Assembly (NCBI RefSeq): GCF_003946275.1
Contig: NZ_RHNQ01000015.1
Location: 1-43,306 of the forward strand
Direction: 5' to 3'
Origin: Loigolactobacillus backii
GTDB lineage: Bacteria; Bacillota; Bacilli; Lactobacillales; Lactobacillaceae
Length of the DNA stretch: 43,306 nt
The position numbers and the translations under genes were made by a program. The notes under the pieces were generated by a model that made no database searches, was not told the origin of the DNA, and saw only the letters and a list, made by a program, of their open reading frames with translations. This document shows, in pieces, positions 925 to 38,194 of the stretch; within the stretch, counting starts at the first letter, position 1; each line of letters starts with the position of its first letter.

Positions 925-1956
925 TTATACTTCTACTTTTTGAATCCAGCCTTCTGGCGCTTCTACATTACCAAACTGGATACCAGTTAACGTATCGTAT
1001 AATTTTTTCGTAACTGGTCCAACTTCAGTTTCAGAATAGAAGACGTGCTTGTCATCACCGTTAGTAATACTTCCGATTGGTGAAATAACGGCCGCCGTTC
1101 CACAGGCTCCAGCTTCCTTAAACTGATCAAACTGATCAATGAAGACGTCGCCTTCTTTAGTACCTAAGCCCAAACGCTCTTTTGCCAAGTAGAGCAAGGA
1201 GTATTTAGTAACTGAAGGCAAGATTGAAGGCGATTTTGGTGTCAAGAATACGTTATCCTTTGTAATACCAAAGAAGTTTGCTGAACCAACTTCTTCGACT
1301 TTACGGTGTGAAACTGGATCAAGGTAGATACAATCACTGTAGCCATTCTCGTGAGCGTACTGGCCTGGGAACAAACTAGCAGCATAGTTACCACCAACTT
1401 TGTTAGCACCAGTACCTTTATGTGCGGCACGGTCATATTCAGAAGTGATGAAGGCCGTTGGTGTTAAACCACCCTTAAAGTAGTTCCCAACTGGCATCGC
1501 GAAAATTGAGAAAATGTATTCTTCTGCTGGATGAACACCAATGTTACCACCAACACCAACCATATAAGGACGCAAGTACAAAGTTGCACCGTTACCGTAT
1601 GGTGGCACAAAGTCTTTATTTGCGACAACCGTTTGTTTAACAGCGTCGACAAATTTATCAACTGGATATTCGGGCATTAAAAGGCGTTCACATGAATGTG
1701 TCATTCGTTTAGCATTCTGTTCTGGACGGAATAAATTAACTTCACCATCTTTTGTCCGGTAAGCCTTTAAACCTTCAAAAACACCTTGACCGTAATGTAA
1801 AATGGTTGAACCTTCATTGATATGCAAATCTGGATCATCCGTTAAGCCTTCATTTTGCCACTTACCATCCTTATAATACGCACGAAAACGATAAGGTAAA
1901 TTCATGTAGGTGAACCCTAAATTATTAAAATCAACATCTGCTGCACTAACTGACAT
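925..1956 (-). CDS. ilvE: Branched-chain amino acid aminotransferase
   Basis: PLP-dependent class IV aminotransferase (about 343 aa) that interconverts Val/Leu/Ile and their 2-oxo acids, with glutamate/2-oxoglutarate as partner. The PLP lysine is expected in GANKVGGNY (about residue 186), followed by the class IV motif EVGSANFFGI. FEGLK and YLRPY near the substrate pocket also fit the family. The frame is open to a TTG at 1974, but that extension contains the ribosome site GAAGGGAG for the ATG at 1956, which I take as the start. It is divergent from ridA and next to the ilv operon, so it serves the last step of BCAA synthesis or the first step of catabolism. The same family is called bcaT in lactic acid bacteria. 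Confidence 0.95.
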   Translation of the reverse strand: MSVSAADVDFNNLGFTYMNLPYRFRAYYKDGKWQNEGLTDDPDLHINEGSTILHYGQGVFEGLKAYRTKDGEVNLFRPEQNAKRMTHSCERLLMPEYPVDKFVDAVKQTVVANKDFVPPYGNGATLYLRPYMVGVGGNIGVHPAEEYIFSIFAMPVGNYFKGGLTPTAFITSEYDRAAHKGTGANKVGGNYAASLFPGQYAHENGYSDCIYLDPVSHRKVEEVGSANFFGITKDNVFLTPKSPSILPSVTKYSLLYLAKERLGLGTKEGDVFIDQFDQFKEAGACGTAAVISPIGSITNGDDKHVFYSETEVGPVTKKLYDTLTGIQFGNVEAPEGWIQKVEV

Positions 1957-2919: not shown

Positions 2920-3081
2920 TTTGAAAAAGGTGATTTGGCTGTTGTAGCTACTATTCCGCAACTGAGAATTATTAGCTAAGTACGCTAATAATTTTGATGC
3001 TTCATACGTTGTCCATTCAACTAAGGCGAAAACCGCCAAGTTGAAACATGGCAACCGCAGGAAGCTGCTTTTTCAAACACG
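2920..3081. repeat. Dispersed repeat family B, copy B2
   Basis: About 160 bp, opening with TTTGAAAAAGG and closing with GCTTTTTCAAACACG. The interior contains GTTGTCCATTCAACTAAGGC and a GCTAATAAT-type small hairpin. The reverse complement matches B3 at 19579-19794 over most of its length. B1, B2 and their spacers fill 2677-3204, where I see no gene. A short sequence (near 2800 and again near 3085, CTAATAA-GG-ATTT) is duplicated beside both copies. Confidence 0.75.
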
Positions 3082-3204
3082 CACACTAATTAGTTAGGAA
3101 AATCCTAATAAAGGTATTTCCTAAACACGAACTAATTTCTACAATTAAGGTTAACAATTTTCAAACGCGCTCTTAGAATAATTTTCAGAAATACCCCACT
3201 TTTT

Positions 3205-8974: not shown

Positions 8975-9246
8975 AATAAAAAGCGCCCGCCAAGATATTT
9001 AAAATCTTGAAGGACGCTTATTTGCGTGTTACCACCTCTATTCATAGCACCATTACTGGTACTACCTCTTCACGTGCAGCAATAAAAATAATTGCGATAC
9101 GCTAGCGGGATAATGGTGGCAGCCAATAAACTTACTTAAATTTCGGTTCATCACTCGGGGAGGATTTTCTTAAGACGTCTGCTTGTTTCCTTTCACCTAC
9201 TGAAACTCGCTTTAAGGCAGAACATCGAAATACTCTTTCCCGTCAA
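8975..9246 (-). promoter_or_regulatory. T-box leader 1 (isoleucine-type) of ilvBNCA
   Basis: On the minus strand this carries the T-box hallmarks in order: GGGAAAGAGTA at the base of Stem I, the AGCGAG / GGTG distal region, a candidate specifier, the T-box sequence AGAGGTGGTAACACG (9025-9039) and a GC-rich terminator (8975-9019) ending in a T-run. I place the specifier by the pattern GAA-A-NNN, giving AUC (Ile) at 9173-9175. TGGT in the T-box bulge fits a tRNA ending in ACCA. The terminator lies about 115 bp before ilvB. Uncharged tRNA-Ile would allow readthrough into the operon. Class confidence is high; codon choice is moderate. Confidence 0.9.
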
Positions 9247-9295
9247 CATGATTATTTATGGTGCTGAAATAAATCAACACATTTGCTTGGTTATT

Positions 9296-19311: not shown

Positions 19312-19509
19312 GGGAGTGGGACAGAAGTTGGTTTTGGGTTCACTGCGTAACGTAGGCCCATCCAATAATGGTACTATGGTTATTGAATTATCCTTTGAAA
19401 AAGTAGCTTCCTTTGCTTTTCCAAACACTCCCGTAAGGTACGTGACCCCCCAGACCTTTGGCGTACGTTCCGGAAACAGTAAGAGGCCAGGACTTTTGTC
19501 CTGGCCTCT
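19312..19509 (+). repeat. Family A repeat, copy A2, interrupted
   Basis: Begins GGGAGTGGGACAGAAGT and ends in the hairpin GAGGCCAGGAC / GTCCTGGCCTC. It is longer than A1 and A3 because a foreign hairpin occupies about 19390-19432, between the TTGAATT and CCGTAAGGTACGTGA segments that are adjacent in A3. Confidence 0.75.
19390..19432. repeat. Family B-like hairpin nested inside A2
   Basis: TTTGAAAAAGTAGC facing GCTTTTCCAAACACTC; read on the minus strand it begins GAGTGTTTGGAAAAGC, as the B ends do. It breaks the A consensus at one point, so it entered an existing A copy. Confidence 0.6.
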
Positions 19510-19578: not shown

Positions 19579-19794
19579 CGTGTTTAAAAAGGCAGGTTCC
19601 TGCGATTGCCATATTTCAACTTGGCGTTTTTCGCCATAGTTGAATGGACAACGTATGAAACATCAAGATTATTAGCGTTTTATGCTAATAATTCTCAATT
19701 GTGGAATAGTAGTTACGATCGCCAAATAATCCACTACGTGAATCATTTGTCAATCTAGACTAATGCTCAGAACCTGGACGCCCTTTTAAACACT
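19579..19794. repeat. Family B repeat, copy B3
   Basis: Starts CGTGTTTAAAAAGGCAGG and ends CCCTTTTAAACACTC. The reverse complement of B2 aligns through TTTCAACTTGGCG, GTTGAATGGACAACGTATGA and GGAATAGTAGTTAC. An extra approximately 55-bp tail is unique to this copy. A2 and B3 fill 19288-19799; no gene is seen there. Confidence 0.7.
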
Positions 19795-23247: not shown

Positions 23248-23414
23248 AGAGCGGCCGGGACAAAAAGTCCTAGCCACCTATTATTTCCGAACATTACGCT
23301 AGAACGTGCGCCAAAAGTCTGGATTCACGTACCTAACTACGGCCAATTCAATAGCCATAGTACGGTTATTGGATTGGTTCCATTACGCAACCGACTTTTG
23401 TCCCACTCTCTCTT
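23248..23414 (-). repeat. Family A repeat, copy A3 (inverted)
   Basis: The reverse complement reads GAGTGGGACAAAAGTCGGTT and continues through GTTAGGTACGTGAATCCAG, GCGCACGTTCTAG and a final hairpin. It is the most complete uninterrupted copy, and shows what A2 looked like before the nested insertion. Confidence 0.75.
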
Positions 23415-26393: not shown

Positions 26394-26595
26394 TCTAATC
26401 GCCCCTTTTTCAACCCATCTAGCTAGAAACTAAATTAAAGCGTGCTTCAAAATTAACCGCACATTTGCTTACGTTCTAATTGAGAATTCCTCTCAATAGT
26501 AACACCAATCTGAAAACGAATACAGGGCCAATAATTCGACTTTGGTGATTCTTTTAGAAAGAAATTTATGGTACGCTACTGAAGAGGTGGCTATC

Positions 26596-27531
26596 ATGAA
26601 AAAATTGCTTTGTGTTGCTGGTATCCTAATTCTTTTAATTGTTATTGGCCTATTTGGTGCTGGTCTATATTTTTACAATGTTGCTATTGTTCCTGGTCAA
26701 AAAAGTTTCATTAGCGAAAACACAACCCTAAAACGTTCTGATCCTCTATATTCGGAAAAGAAATGGTTTCAAGATGTTCCTAAGAAAATATGGTTTGAAA
26801 CTTCGGCCACCGGAAATTTACGTTTGGATGCAGACTACATCAAGGCTGCTAAGCCAACAACCAAAACAGCAATTATTGCCCACGGTTACATGGGTAGCAA
26901 AGAACAGATGGGTCAGTACGCGGCACTTTTTCACGATCTAGGTTATAACGTGTTACTACCTGATTCTCGTGGCCAAGGTGCCAGTCAAGGTAAAGTTATC
27001 GGCTATGGTTGGCTGGACCGTTTAGACTACATTAAATGGGCCAAACAAGTTGTTCAAAAAAATGGCCAGAACTCCCAGATCGTACTTTTTGGTATCAGCA
27101 TGGGTGCTAGTGGCATGACAATGGCCAGTGGCGAATCATCGTTACCTAGCCAAGTTAAGGCCTTTGTTGTTGATAGTCCCTTTACTACTGCAGACGCCGA
27201 AATTAGCCATCAGGCCACGACCTTATACCACCTACCACGCTTTCCGCTAGTTCCCATTACTAGTGCAATTACCAAAGTTCGGGCCGGTTATAGTTTTAAG
27301 GAGGCTGACGCGTTAGCACAAGTTAAAAAAAATAAAACGCCAATCATGTTCATCTCAGGCAGTGCTGATACCTTTGTTCCCCACGCAATGACTAAAACAC
27401 TCTATCAGGCAACTAAGGCACCTAAAAAAATGCTGACCGTTAAAGGAGCCAAACACGTTGGCTCATTTTCCAAAGAGCCTGAGCGTTATCGAAATAGCAT
27501 TCAAACTTTCTTAGCACATTACATTCATTAA
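26596..27531 (+). CDS. Membrane-anchored alpha/beta hydrolase
   Basis: A 311-aa protein with an N-terminal membrane segment (about 5-27) and a serine-hydrolase domain facing outside. The nucleophile is S168 in GISMGASG, the acid is D258 (SGSADTFVP) and the histidine H287 (KGAKHVGS); the oxyanion HGYMG is at 96-100. The group includes lactobacillus esterases and YqkD-like proteins. The ATG at 26596 has GAAGAGGTGG upstream; earlier starts would spoil the signal anchor. The substrate is unknown. Confidence 0.87.
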   Translation: MKKLLCVAGILILLIVIGLFGAGLYFYNVAIVPGQKSFISENTTLKRSDPLYSEKKWFQDVPKKIWFETSATGNLRLDADYIKAAKPTTKTAIIAHGYMGSKEQMGQYAALFHDLGYNVLLPDSRGQGASQGKVIGYGWLDRLDYIKWAKQVVQKNGQNSQIVLFGISMGASGMTMASGESSLPSQVKAFVVDSPFTTADAEISHQATTLYHLPRFPLVPITSAITKVRAGYSFKEADALAQVKKNKTPIMFISGSADTFVPHAMTKTLYQATKAPKKMLTVKGAKHVGSFSKEPERYRNSIQTFLAHYIH

Positions 27532-27604
27532 AAACAAATCTGAAACTAGAGGGCGCTTATGCCGCTTGCCACGGAATGACACGTGGGCAGATTTAGTTAG
27601 GTTC

Positions 27605-27894
27605 CATTCCGGCGCTGGCGTATGGAACGCGTGCGACTTGGACTTGCCGGGCTTCGGCTTAGTCCAATCGACAACGGGAAACAAGTCCTGTTTAGCGAAT
27701 ATGTTCTAGTAATTAATACTTGCTAAAATTAGTTGTTAAGAATGAGCGACAGTGGCGCGGTGACAAGCTAATTTTCTTTCCGATTAAACCCGTTCGGAAA
27801 AGAAAATGGATCTTGTCAATCACGCAAGGTACTAAATGACCACAATTCGGTCATCAAGTACCTTCGACACGGCTGATACGCCAGCGCCGGAATG
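27605..27894 (+). ncRNA. Candidate structured RNA, family C core, copy 1
   Basis: Outer helix of 19 perfect base pairs: CATTCCGGCGCTGGCGTAT (27605-27623) with its complement at 27876-27894. Inner helices are TTGGACT/AGTCCAA with inner GCCG/CGGC (27638-27667), GACAAG/CTTGTC with an A/T-rich inner stem (27772-27817), and AAGGTACT/AGTACCTT with an inner ATGACC/GGTCAT stem (27826-27864). Compared with the other copies, helices change on both sides while joining sequences such as TAAATG and TCGACAC stay. G-U-compatible changes favour the plus strand as the RNA. It is not recognised as a known family. Confidence 0.6.
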
Positions 27895-28110
27895 AAACCT
27901 TGGCAGTAGTTGAGCTCTAATTATTGAATCATTTAATTGTTTAATTAGTCCAATTGAGTAGAAACCACAGCTTTAATGCTGCGCAACTTATTGATGATCT
28001 TAATTAGCCAGCAACACTGACAAAGGTAGTTTTCACCTATTTGCAACACAATAACTGGTTTACTGCAATAGACACAAATAACATTTAAATGTGCTACGGC
28101 GGCCAGATCT

Positions 28111-28276
28111 CATTTCGGGGCGCGAGGATCAGCTGTGTCGATGATTCTTAATGGCGGTCTGGGCCATTTAGAATCATGTGGGCTTGGCGAGATCCACTTT
28201 TATTCCAGCTTTGCCTTTATCTGGTAAAAGTTAGCTCGCCAACCCGCCACGCGTTCCGTCCTCGCGCACCGGAATG
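28111..28276 (-). ncRNA. Candidate structured RNA, family C core, diverged copy 3
   Basis: The minus-strand fold mirrors copy 1 without the second helix. The outer helix CATTCCGGTGCGCGAGGA pairs with TCCTCGCGCCCCGAAATG (16 of 18). It also has GGCGAG/CTCGCC, with ACTTTTACCAG against CTGGAATAAAAGT inside, and ATGATTCT/AGAATCAT with inner ATGGC/GCCAT. Joining sequences GCTAA, TGGATCT, CTAAATG and TCGACAC are shared with copy 1. Helix sequences differ at many pairs, with pairing kept. Confidence 0.6.
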
Positions 28277-28352
28277 GAATCTAAACTGTTCTGCCTTGTT
28301 CCAGTTAAGTTCTGGCGTTCTGAAAACTAGCTAACAGTTTTAAATATAAGGG

Positions 28353-29273
28353 CTACGATGTACTAGCCGCAACTAATTTTTGACACAGTTCATGCGTTAA
28401 AATACTGGAGGCTGGGCTGACTGGGTTAGTGTGAGCAGGATCGGCAACTGCTGCAACAAAAGCCTTAATAAGTGGTTCAAACCCGCGGCGTTGTAAATTA
28501 GGTGTCCAATCAGGGAACGTTGTTATTTGTTCACCTTCTGGGCTGCGTTTACTAAAAGAATTAAGGTCAACGACTCGATAACTACCCTGAATATTTTGCA
28601 GTTCGGCCGTCTCACTGTTGGCCCCGGCGTGCATGTTCATCAAAGCGTGAGCTGTCATATTTGGTAACTCCAAAGTTAAACTACAGTGATCTAGATTACC
28701 TTGCAAAGTAGAAACCTGATAGTGACAAGTTAGTGCCGCGTCCGTTTCAATTCCCGCCAAAAATAAAGTTGTATCGACAACGTGGGTCATTAAATCAAAT
28801 ACGGCAAACTTAACTGGTTGGTCTGCCGCAATGCGATTTTTTTGAACTAACAAAACATTTGCCGGTCCAATTTGCTGTAAGCGTTGATTCATTGGTGCAA
28901 AGCGTCGGTTAAATCCAGCCGTTAATAATAATTTTTTTGCCGCCGCTAAAGCATATAAATGCTTAACCACCGCCAAATCATCACTGACTGGCTTATCAAC
29001 GTAAACGTGACTACCAGCTTGTAAAAATTGCTCAATTAATTGTGCGTGGGTTTCAGTTGGTGTATGTATAAATACTGCCGTCGGTGCCAATTCAAGTAGC
29101 TCTGTTACTGAATGAACGACCTTTTTAAAACCGTAACGCTGTTGTAAGTACTGTAATTTTTCATTATTGCGGGTACATAAAATCCACTCAACTTGATCTT
29201 GCATCCCTGCCATCACCGGCAAGTATGCTTTTTGGGCAATGTTGCCAAGACCAATAACGCCGATTTTTAACAT
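28353..29273 (-). CDS. Gfo/Idh/MocA family oxidoreductase
   Basis: A 306-aa NAD(P)-dependent oxidoreductase. The Rossmann motif is IGVIGLGNIAQKAY; the catalytic lysine motif is YVDKPVSDD (in place of EKP). The C-terminal substrate domain follows from about 125. GGGAGCG precedes ATG 29273. The last two codons and stop lie in the end of repeat C, so the C-terminus may have been fixed by that insertion. The substrate is unknown; sugars or cyclitols are common in the family. Confidence 0.85.
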   Translation of the reverse strand: MLKIGVIGLGNIAQKAYLPVMAGMQDQVEWILCTRNNEKLQYLQQRYGFKKVVHSVTELLELAPTAVFIHTPTETHAQLIEQFLQAGSHVYVDKPVSDDLAVVKHLYALAAAKKLLLTAGFNRRFAPMNQRLQQIGPANVLLVQKNRIAADQPVKFAVFDLMTHVVDTTLFLAGIETDAALTCHYQVSTLQGNLDHCSLTLELPNMTAHALMNMHAGANSETAELQNIQGSYRVVDLNSFSKRSPEGEQITTFPDWTPNLQRRGFEPLIKAFVAAVADPAHTNPVSPASSILTHELCQKLVAASTS

Positions 29274-34282: not shown

Positions 34283-34360
34283 AAGAGGCACAAAGAGGCC
34301 AGGACTTTTGTCCTGGCCTCTTACTGTTTCCGAACATTACTTTAGAACGTGTGCCTCTTC
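34283..34360. repeat. Partial family A element serving as terminator
   Basis: Contains the A terminal hairpin GAGGCCAGGAC / GTCCTGGCCTC and the CCGAACATTAC-TTAGAACGTG segment. Its own outer arms AAGAGGCACA / TGTGCCTCTT fold the whole unit. It lies between convergent genes (glutathione peroxidase and the ATPase) and could end both. Confidence 0.65.
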
Positions 34361-37480: not shown

Positions 37481-37622
37481 GATCGCATCATTAACTAGGA
37501 GGGAGTTGGCCTAAATTGGTCAGAAATTCTGGCCCGTGTGATTTTCAAATCGGTTCTACTAATCAATTTCAGTGGGCGGCTAGTGGAGTTTTAAATTAAA
37601 TTATATCGCTATTAAAAATAAT

Positions 37623-38194
37623 GCTTATGCCACTTGTCACTGAATTACACGCGATCAGATTTGGTTAGGTTCCATTCCGGCGCTGGCGTATGGAACGCGT
37701 GCGACTTGGACTTGCCGGACTTCGGCTTAGTCCAATCGACAACGGGAAACAAATCCTGTTTAGCGAATATGTTCTAGTAATTAATACTTGCTAAAATTAG
37801 TTGTTAAGAATGAGCGACAGTGGCGCGTTGACAAGCTAATTTTCTTTCCGATTAAACCCCTTCGGAAAAGAAAATGGATCTTGTCAATCACGCAAGGTAC
37901 TAAATGACCACAATTCGGTCATCAAGTACCTTCGACACGGGTGCGACTTGAACTTGGCGGTCCTCGCCTTAGTTCAATCGACAACGGGAAGCGAGTTCTG
38001 TTTAGCGAATAGGAACTAGCAACTGATACTTGCTAGAAAGTGTTGTTTAGAACGAGTAACAGTGATACGCCAGCGTCTCCATTCCACCTTGGCAGTGGTT
38101 GAGCCTTGATTATTGATTAATTTAATCGTTTAGTTAGGCCTTAGCGTTCTGAAAACTGGCCAATAGTTTTAAATATGGTCGCTACGATGCACTA
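37623..38194 (+). repeat. Large intergenic element, family C copy 2
   Basis: About 570 bp. It is nearly identical to copy 1 from AGATTTGGTTAGG to TTCGACACGG (about 37660-37939), then has a diverged second unit (37941-38062) and the shared right end. No protein frame is seen. It fills much of the space 37153-38289; the rest holds the ATPase leader and promoters. Confidence 0.85.
37673..38085 (+). ncRNA. Candidate structured RNA, family C core, copy 2
   Basis: The outer helix is CATTCCGGCGCTGGCGTAT (37673-37691) with ATACGCCAGCG and CATTCC at 38065-38085, three bases of which no longer match. The core hairpins are as in copy 1. The second unit repeats GTGCGACTTG, but its hairpin is TTGAACT/AGTTCAA and GGCG/CGCC (37948-37977) where the first has TTGGACT/AGTCCAA and GCCG/CGGC. 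These are paired changes within one element. CTAGCAA/TTGCTAG likewise replaces CTAGTAA/TTGCTAA. Confidence 0.6.

Follow-up and report, generated by a model that had tools for sequence, protein, structure and literature searches.

A BOX-like modular mobile repeat in Loigolactobacillus with a folded core unit common to an ISLre2 insertion sequence

Background

Modular hairpin repeats, BOX among them, are long familiar, and their structure is not known to have a clear role. In Lactobacillus salivarius, a noncoding RNA that is both long and abundant is the subject of one paper (PMC5643018). The repeat bcr1 is a dispersed intergenic repeat of a Firmicute with a predicted fold, made up of a single short unit and lacking composite halves. 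In the available part of a survey of stem-loop families, bcr1 of Bacillus cereus is given as 167 nt long, and one Lactobacillus, L. johnsonii, is covered (PMC2267715). The accessible text on the BOX elements of Streptococcus pneumoniae and S. suis describes repeats of 67-637 bp, some of them expressed, with a modular boxA-boxB(n)-boxC order, bounding terminal inverted repeats (TIRs), optional tandem middle modules and a predicted RNA fold (PMC3049150).

The element described here lies in Loigolactobacillus backii, on a stretch of 43,306 nucleotides (contig NZ_RHNQ01000015.1) that is called the window below. It can be classed as a modular, BOX-like mobile repeat from a new lineage; its core unit has no Rfam match and is common to an insertion sequence. 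It is probably a non-autonomous, MITE-like mobile repeat assembled from structured modules, of which one, the C unit, is perhaps an outward-reading RNA. An initial annotation of the window had marked positions 27605-27894 as an unrecognised, folded noncoding element, with a perfect outer helix as its leading evidence.

Layout and folding of the element

The 290 nt of 27605-27894 fold with an energy of -127.4 kcal/mol on the plus strand (z -11.2) and -120.0 kcal/mol on the minus strand (z -11.3), and none of 200 shuffles reached these energies on either strand. With z about -11 on both strands, the description of this stretch as a multi-branched folded element and not simple spacer is borne out. 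The stretch is the left half of a longer, ORF-less composite repeat with its right end at 28365, and this repeat lies between convergent ORFs at 26542-27531 (+) and 28353-29273 (-). No ORF of at least 80 aa is found within the element, in agreement with the earlier statement that the left half holds no protein frame. The features of the window are as follows.

27532..28365 (+): whole composite element; left TIR apparently lost, end read by eye
27605..27623 (+): 5' arm of the outer stem, CATTCCGGCGCTGGCGTAT
27612-27623: portion of the 5' arm common to other copies, GCGCTGGCGTAT
27632..27752 (+): module B (TGCGAC...GACAG, 121 nt), which may be missing or repeated in tandem; includes hairpin 27638-27667
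27752..27870 (-): core of the C unit, two hairpins, each with an internal loop
27755..27825: first hairpin of the C unit, with CTA (27768-27770) facing GGAT (27808-27811) in its internal loop
27826..27864: second hairpin of the C unit, with AA facing CA in a 2 x 2 internal loop
27876..27894 (+): 3' arm of the outer stem; final 8 nt unlike other copies and matching the 5' arm
27895..28112: spacer separating the two inverted structured halves
28113..28278 (-): right half, homologous to the left half in inverted orientation (identity about 70%)
28120-28250 (-): C unit of the right half (2621-2751 of fetched locus L086)
28351..28365 (-): right TIR, TAGTACATCGTAGCC, with 2 mismatches to TAGTGCATCGTAGCG
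37581..38194 (+): second window copy of the element, with two B modules; left end by eye
37942..38062 (+): additional B module of the second copy, following its C unit

Likeness of the window copy to other copies starts at 27555. A second TG follows module B at 27753-27754, and the C unit is closed by GTG (27752-27754) and CAC (27868-27870). The second window copy has an exact TAGTGCATCGTAGCG right end at 38180-38194. Two of the three hairpins originally placed inside the outer helix, 27638-27667 and 27826-27864, were recovered; the middle one, drawn at 27772-27817, is larger and extends over about 27755-27825. The joining motifs TAAATG (27833-27838) and TCGACAC (27864-27870) are in the sequence as reported.

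Several other structured features were seen in the window. A T-box leader lies at 9007-9255 (-); it scores 101 bits, above the gathering threshold of 93. Another dispersed family of hairpins (AGGCTAGGACAAAAAGTCCTAGCCT-like) occurs at 794-858, 19471-19509, 23250-23312 and 34294-34355; its flanks are conserved and both orientations occur. A near-palindrome of 38 nt is located at 2697-2775, and an inverted repeat pair of 149 nt, 87% complementary, at 2933-3086 and 19579-19727. These last features carry AACCGCAGGAA.CTGCTTTTTCAAACAC motifs and perhaps represent another repeat family.

The outer stem

The 19-bp outer helix is present as annotated, CATTCCGGCGCTGGCGTAT (27605-27623) being complementary to 27876-27894 at every position. 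The chance expectation of such stems in 290 nt is about 1.6e-7, and the window has just one other perfect inverted repeat of at least 19 nt within 400 nt, at 2697-2775. Among 39 left-half copies, identified by a motif search in loci L086-L150 (the closing side of L099 may be wrong), all 8 outer positions are paired in one copy and at least 7 in two. Among these copies, the perfect 19-bp stem is private to the window copy.

The ortholog of the window locus in the sister species L. iwatensis (L106) is 97.6% identical over 4,780 aligned positions. It reads CC-TCCATTCC-ACC where the window reads CC-GGAATGAA-ACC, and 22 of the 23 positions of the window version match the reverse complement of the 5' arm. 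The 19-bp stem of the window therefore looks like the product of a DNA template switch between the arms. Template switching creates stems in RNA hairpins and may help to maintain them, according to the available portion of a published study (PMC8794818). Because its closing 8 nt copy the other arm in template-switch fashion, the stem is uninformative about RNA: what had been offered as the leading evidence is the weakest part of the case, being private to one copy and template-switch-like. The window copy is a concrete case of this kind, in which a long perfect stem can mislead RNA prediction.

Module B

Module B is 121 nt long and is absent, single or double in copies of the L. backii genome, with three tandem modules at L135. 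Of 93 matches to B, 75 were counted, these being near full length, above 60 bits and in fetched loci; they include one solitary copy in another genus. The module is found after GGAACGCG, after CGACACAGC, in tandem, or inside a second element type in one genome (G005). The B model matched in 17 of 301 Lactobacillaceae genomes and 7 of 40 genera, the source genome included, and many of the matches outside the genus are short (about 58 nt), corresponding to the first hairpin alone.

Covariation in module B, assessed in an alignment of 68 rows from which near-identical rows had been removed by hand (A1), is weaker than in the C unit. Six of 29 pairs are changed on both sides, a number that 309 of 500 shuffles equal or exceed; doubly changed cells number 68 against 32 in shuffles, and both the cells and the score exceed every shuffle. 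The plus strand is paired in 93.2% of cells and the minus strand in 81.6%.

It is conceivable, although we lean against it, that module B moves on its own, duplicating 2 bp on insertion. Its presence or absence is precise (the orthologs L087 and L108 differ by one B module), and the dinucleotides flanking it, TG/TG in most copies, are CG/CG at L143 and TA/TA at L165. Yet TG/TG in 67 of the 75 copies would be given likewise by a fixed module end, the flanking dinucleotides are unequal in six copies, and no inverted ends of B were seen. A group II intron origin, considered since B starts with GTGCGAC in one context, was rejected: the first base depends on context and no intron model matched. Group II intron matches do occur in G005, at 104-426 and 1857-1927 (+) of locus L158, near the B copy and outside it.

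In another family of the order, the B model matched weakly (E 3e-5 to 8e-4) in four genomes, all from a single genus. At these loci (L234-L237), a B-like first hairpin, GCGACTTCAACTAGGCG..TGCCGTAGTTGAATCG, was observed with weak scores, in tandem in some. A blast search with a stretch of this type returned Enterococcus and Listeria records that matched the first 73 query letters only, leaving the hairpins unmatched. The second composite repeat type of G005 (L151-L161) has modules CCATTCTTGTGGC..GCCGCAAGAAACATGG and GAGCGTAGTTGC..GCAACTACG that host B, and part of this repeat matches nine lactobacillus plasmids.

Copies and insertion sites

Searches of the L. backii genome gave 50 matches to the left half and 46 to the right half, clustered into about 24 places. 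The left-half query matched in 7 of 60 genomes (the source genome included; six of the same genus and one of another), and the right-half query in 6 of the 8 genomes of the genus, again with the source genome included. The genus set includes Loigolactobacillus iwatensis JCM 18838 and L. binensis 735-2. Reduced copies are also present, consisting of ends alone or having modules missing.

The right-end pattern TAGTGCATCGTAGCG, allowing 2 mismatches, occurs at 17 sites in the L. backii genome against 1 for a reversed-pattern control, and at 13 against 2 in its nearest relative, L. iwatensis; the six other genus genomes jointly have 18 against 25. Since there is no TIR excess in these six genomes, most of their elements must have other ends.

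Thirteen element sites of L. backii were mapped by their flanks in L. iwatensis: seven are without the element, three retain an arm or end scar, and three are ambiguous. Several of the seven element-free sites adjoin further sequence differences, and the pair L089/L177 could be a deletion between short repeats. The scars indicate that some absences are losses, not insertions. Only one filled and empty junction is base-exact, that of L096/L187, with a TA duplication (..CATTACTC-TA..TA-GAACG.. vs ..CATTACTTTAGAACG..); L095/L195 agrees with a TA junction on its left side, and the other site pairs are inexact.

The element thus has the TIRs, the target-site duplication (one exact pair) and the multiple copies without a transposase gene by which MITEs are recognised; a parent element with matching TIRs, which also belongs to that definition, was not found in the searches that follow. 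Inspection by eye revealed no gene-bearing element bounded by the TIRs among 48 TIR-like sites in 7 of the 8 genus genomes and no autonomous parent with a longer TIR pattern in 3 genomes, and the L. backii genome has no DDE_3 (IS630-type) transposase gene. Searches of plasmids and phages for the window element, and of viral contigs for the pattern designated C2, gave no match.

A C unit inside an ISLre2 insertion sequence

Three L. backii plasmids have an 86% match to the C-unit repeat of another genome (G268). It lies next to an annotated ISLre2 transposase, which scores 315.6 bits against a family cut-off of 200. The ISLre2 element is 1723 bp long and is flanked by 9-bp duplications at two sites (TTCTTGTAC and GTAGTTTAA); its C unit lies inside the element, 27 nt downstream of the transposase stop. 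An identical, intact copy is present on another contig of the source genome (C106) at the first (TTCTTGTAC) site, 9-bp duplications included. A genome of another genus (G086) has the same flank and C unit. The same element with the same left flank was observed at L310 (C106 of the source genome, G000), L309 (contig C91 of G086) and L301 (plasmid NZ_CP014625.1), an arrangement that points to a shared plasmid. In NZ_CP014625.1, this element lies beside acc/fab fatty-acid genes.

In the G268 repeat, a match to the left end of ISLre2 (225 positions, 86%) abuts a match to its right end (78 positions, 96%); on this sequence comparison, the repeat is an internally deleted ISLre2 carrying a C unit. 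In G219, a transposase remnant (56% over 57 aa) stands beside a C unit in the same arrangement.

A C unit was present in 3 of the 30 fetched ISLre2 loci and so is no general feature of the family; of the 19 loci over the cut-off, two have one, both in the same element, and the third C unit lies beside a 28-bit fragment. The ISLre2 element has other TIRs and 9-bp duplications, and for this reason cannot simply be the parent of the window element, in which no ISLre2 transposase was found.

Covariation and strand preference of the C unit

The C-unit model matched in 29 of 301 Lactobacillaceae genomes and 5 of 40 genera, the source genome included; in a scan of 295 genomes from the order, Lactobacillaceae among them, it gave no match in any other family. 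Covariation was assessed in two alignments. The first (A2) holds 62 distinct copies out of 71, with a structure taken from the minus-strand fold and so leaning to that strand. The second (A3) holds 66 matches (63 distinct) in 49 loci outside the model set, with rows aligned to the C model and thus leaning towards its structure. Fifty loci had been fetched, and L289 was omitted as it overlaps L247; four loci (L251, L277, L278 and L292) are from G006, of the same genus, some rows are weak (E up to 0.0047), and one of these, in L282, overlaps another row on the opposite strand.

In A2, 23 of 40 pairs are changed on both sides, with 248 doubly changed cells, where shuffles give 85 and none of 500 reaches the observed number; the score of 0.265 compares with at most 0.108 in slid controls, every one of which is lower. 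Further pair types were no more numerous than in shuffles, 458 of 500 of which gave as many or more. In A3, 37 of 40 pairs are changed on both sides, with 486 cells against 151 in shuffles (0 of 500), and the score is 0.438 compared with 0.143 shuffled and at most 0.103 slid. In the wider alignments, where the initial annotation had proposed looking for uncompensated helix mutations, helix changes are compensated, most strongly in the C unit.

In left-half orientation, A-C cells outnumber G-T cells by 152 to 29 in the genus set, where they are 6.2% of cells, and by 73 to 13 in A3 (3.5%). The minus strand is paired in 96.4% / 88.9% of cells and the plus strand in 91.4% / 86.0% (genus set / A3). 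Per-column sign tests of the strand preference are not significant (p 0.13, 0.13, 0.17). The C unit leans to the minus strand, which is suggestive, and module B prefers the opposite strand. In the ISLre2 element, the favoured strand of the C unit runs in the same sense as the transposase message. Two C units occur in the order -> <- in 15 of 49 loci (in four of these one member has E above 2e-4) and never in the reverse order; in these 15 convergent pairs, as in the window element, the favoured strand reads outward at each end. This outward reading, together with the run in common with the transposase message, suggests a role for the C unit in transcripts leaving the element.

The hairpins might instead act as DNA, being cruciforms or single-stranded hairpins used by a transposase or recombinase, with no role as RNA. 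The fold is stable on both strands, pairs in A3 are mostly Watson-Crick (1766 of 2069 cells), C units are found as inverted pairs, and the window copy has its template-switch-like change, all of which would fit a DNA structure. Such a role is nevertheless somewhat unlikely given the excess of A-C over G-T in both sets (A-C being G-U on the other strand) and the single C unit of the ISLre2 element. In DNA too, G-T is more stable than A-C. The near-absence of wobble pairs was considered as proof of a process at the DNA level and set aside, as the A-C cells are G-U pairs of the other strand.

A further explanation would dispense with structural selection altogether and regard the covariation as a by-product of template switching and the history of copy lineages. 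The perfect stem of the window is itself a template-switch case, the published process can create and may maintain stems, as far as the available text goes (PMC8794818), and the loop motifs vary in about half of the A3 copies: GCTA with GGATCT is found in 33 of 63 rows, TCGACAC in 31 and all three in 22. What makes this explanation clearly improbable is the internal loop of hairpin 1. Its CTA/GGAT columns do not vary in any of the 62 A2 copies, even though the adjoining stems change, and they are mostly kept in A3 where present (C 52/52, T 44/51 and A 48/50; G 45/46, G 45/46, A 43/47 and T 50/50), these columns having gaps in 11 to 17 of the 63 rows. Template switching would erase asymmetric internal loops, so that invariant ones count against an absence of selection.

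A stand-alone noncoding RNA gene, which the strong fold and heavy covariation could suggest, is very improbable for an element that is dispersed, modular, TIR-bounded, missing from some orthologous sites and located in a region with one promoter-like match against 1.9 expected.

Proposed nature of the element

The initial reading is upheld in part: the feature is folded and is not spacer, but in place of a self-standing folded RNA it is half of a dispersed, TIR-bounded mobile repeat. We propose that the element would be moved as DNA by a transposase supplied in trans. The C unit would work as a folded single-stranded nucleic acid, most likely RNA, in outgoing transcripts. The long stems may occasionally be re-perfected by template switching during DNA replication, as the 19-bp stem of the window would have been.

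A more far-reaching reading, offered tentatively and rather unlikely to hold in full, is that bacterial mobile DNA has in the C unit a new, transferable part made of structured RNA: a three-way junction with covarying stems and largely fixed loops, used by unrelated elements in five Lactobacillaceae genera and reading outward at their ends. If so, its users would be the TA-flanked composite repeats and an ISLre2 insertion sequence that makes 9-bp duplications, and it would control or insulate the transcripts leaving the element. Rather than a lone RNA gene, the C unit seems to be a structural component of mobile DNA, shared and so far unnamed. As one structured module is common to repeats and to an autonomous insertion sequence, where it adjoins the transposase gene, the role of the structure becomes testable.

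Comparison with known families

Rfam 15 holds GOLLD, ROOL, HEARO and the group II intron. None of these, which had been suggested as candidates, matched the element. At the gathering threshold, Rfam gave no match on the element or its relatives, the matches obtained there being other RNAs nearby, and a relaxed search of 27500-28400 gave four matches, all far below the gathering score. A search covering mainly literature outside subscription gave no published description of the element among the matches listed. Within these limits, the element is unrecognised as first stated, neither Rfam nor the literature among the matches listed having yielded a counterpart.

Four described groups come closest. 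The short repeat bcr1 is alike in being dispersed, intergenic and folded, and the window element differs from it by its composite halves. ISLre2 is related through one element, found in the source genome, in G086 and on L. backii plasmids, which has a C unit with similar arms; window-type elements differ in having other ends and 2-bp TA duplications in place of 9-bp ones. MITEs, including RUP, are similar with respect to TIRs, insertion duplication, multiple copies, absence of coding capacity and strong folding. In contrast to these, the window element has no transposase parent found with the same TIRs and is built from shared structured modules.

The closest likeness in build is to BOX: both have TIRs, a variable number of B modules (0-3 here) and a fold. 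The window element is distinguished from BOX by its length of about 800 bp and its two inverted homologous halves, and by a structured unit that is common to the window-type element and the ISLre2 element. It also differs in distribution, as C-model matches stay within Lactobacillaceae among the 295 genomes of the order and the B model reaches, only weakly, one genus of another family.
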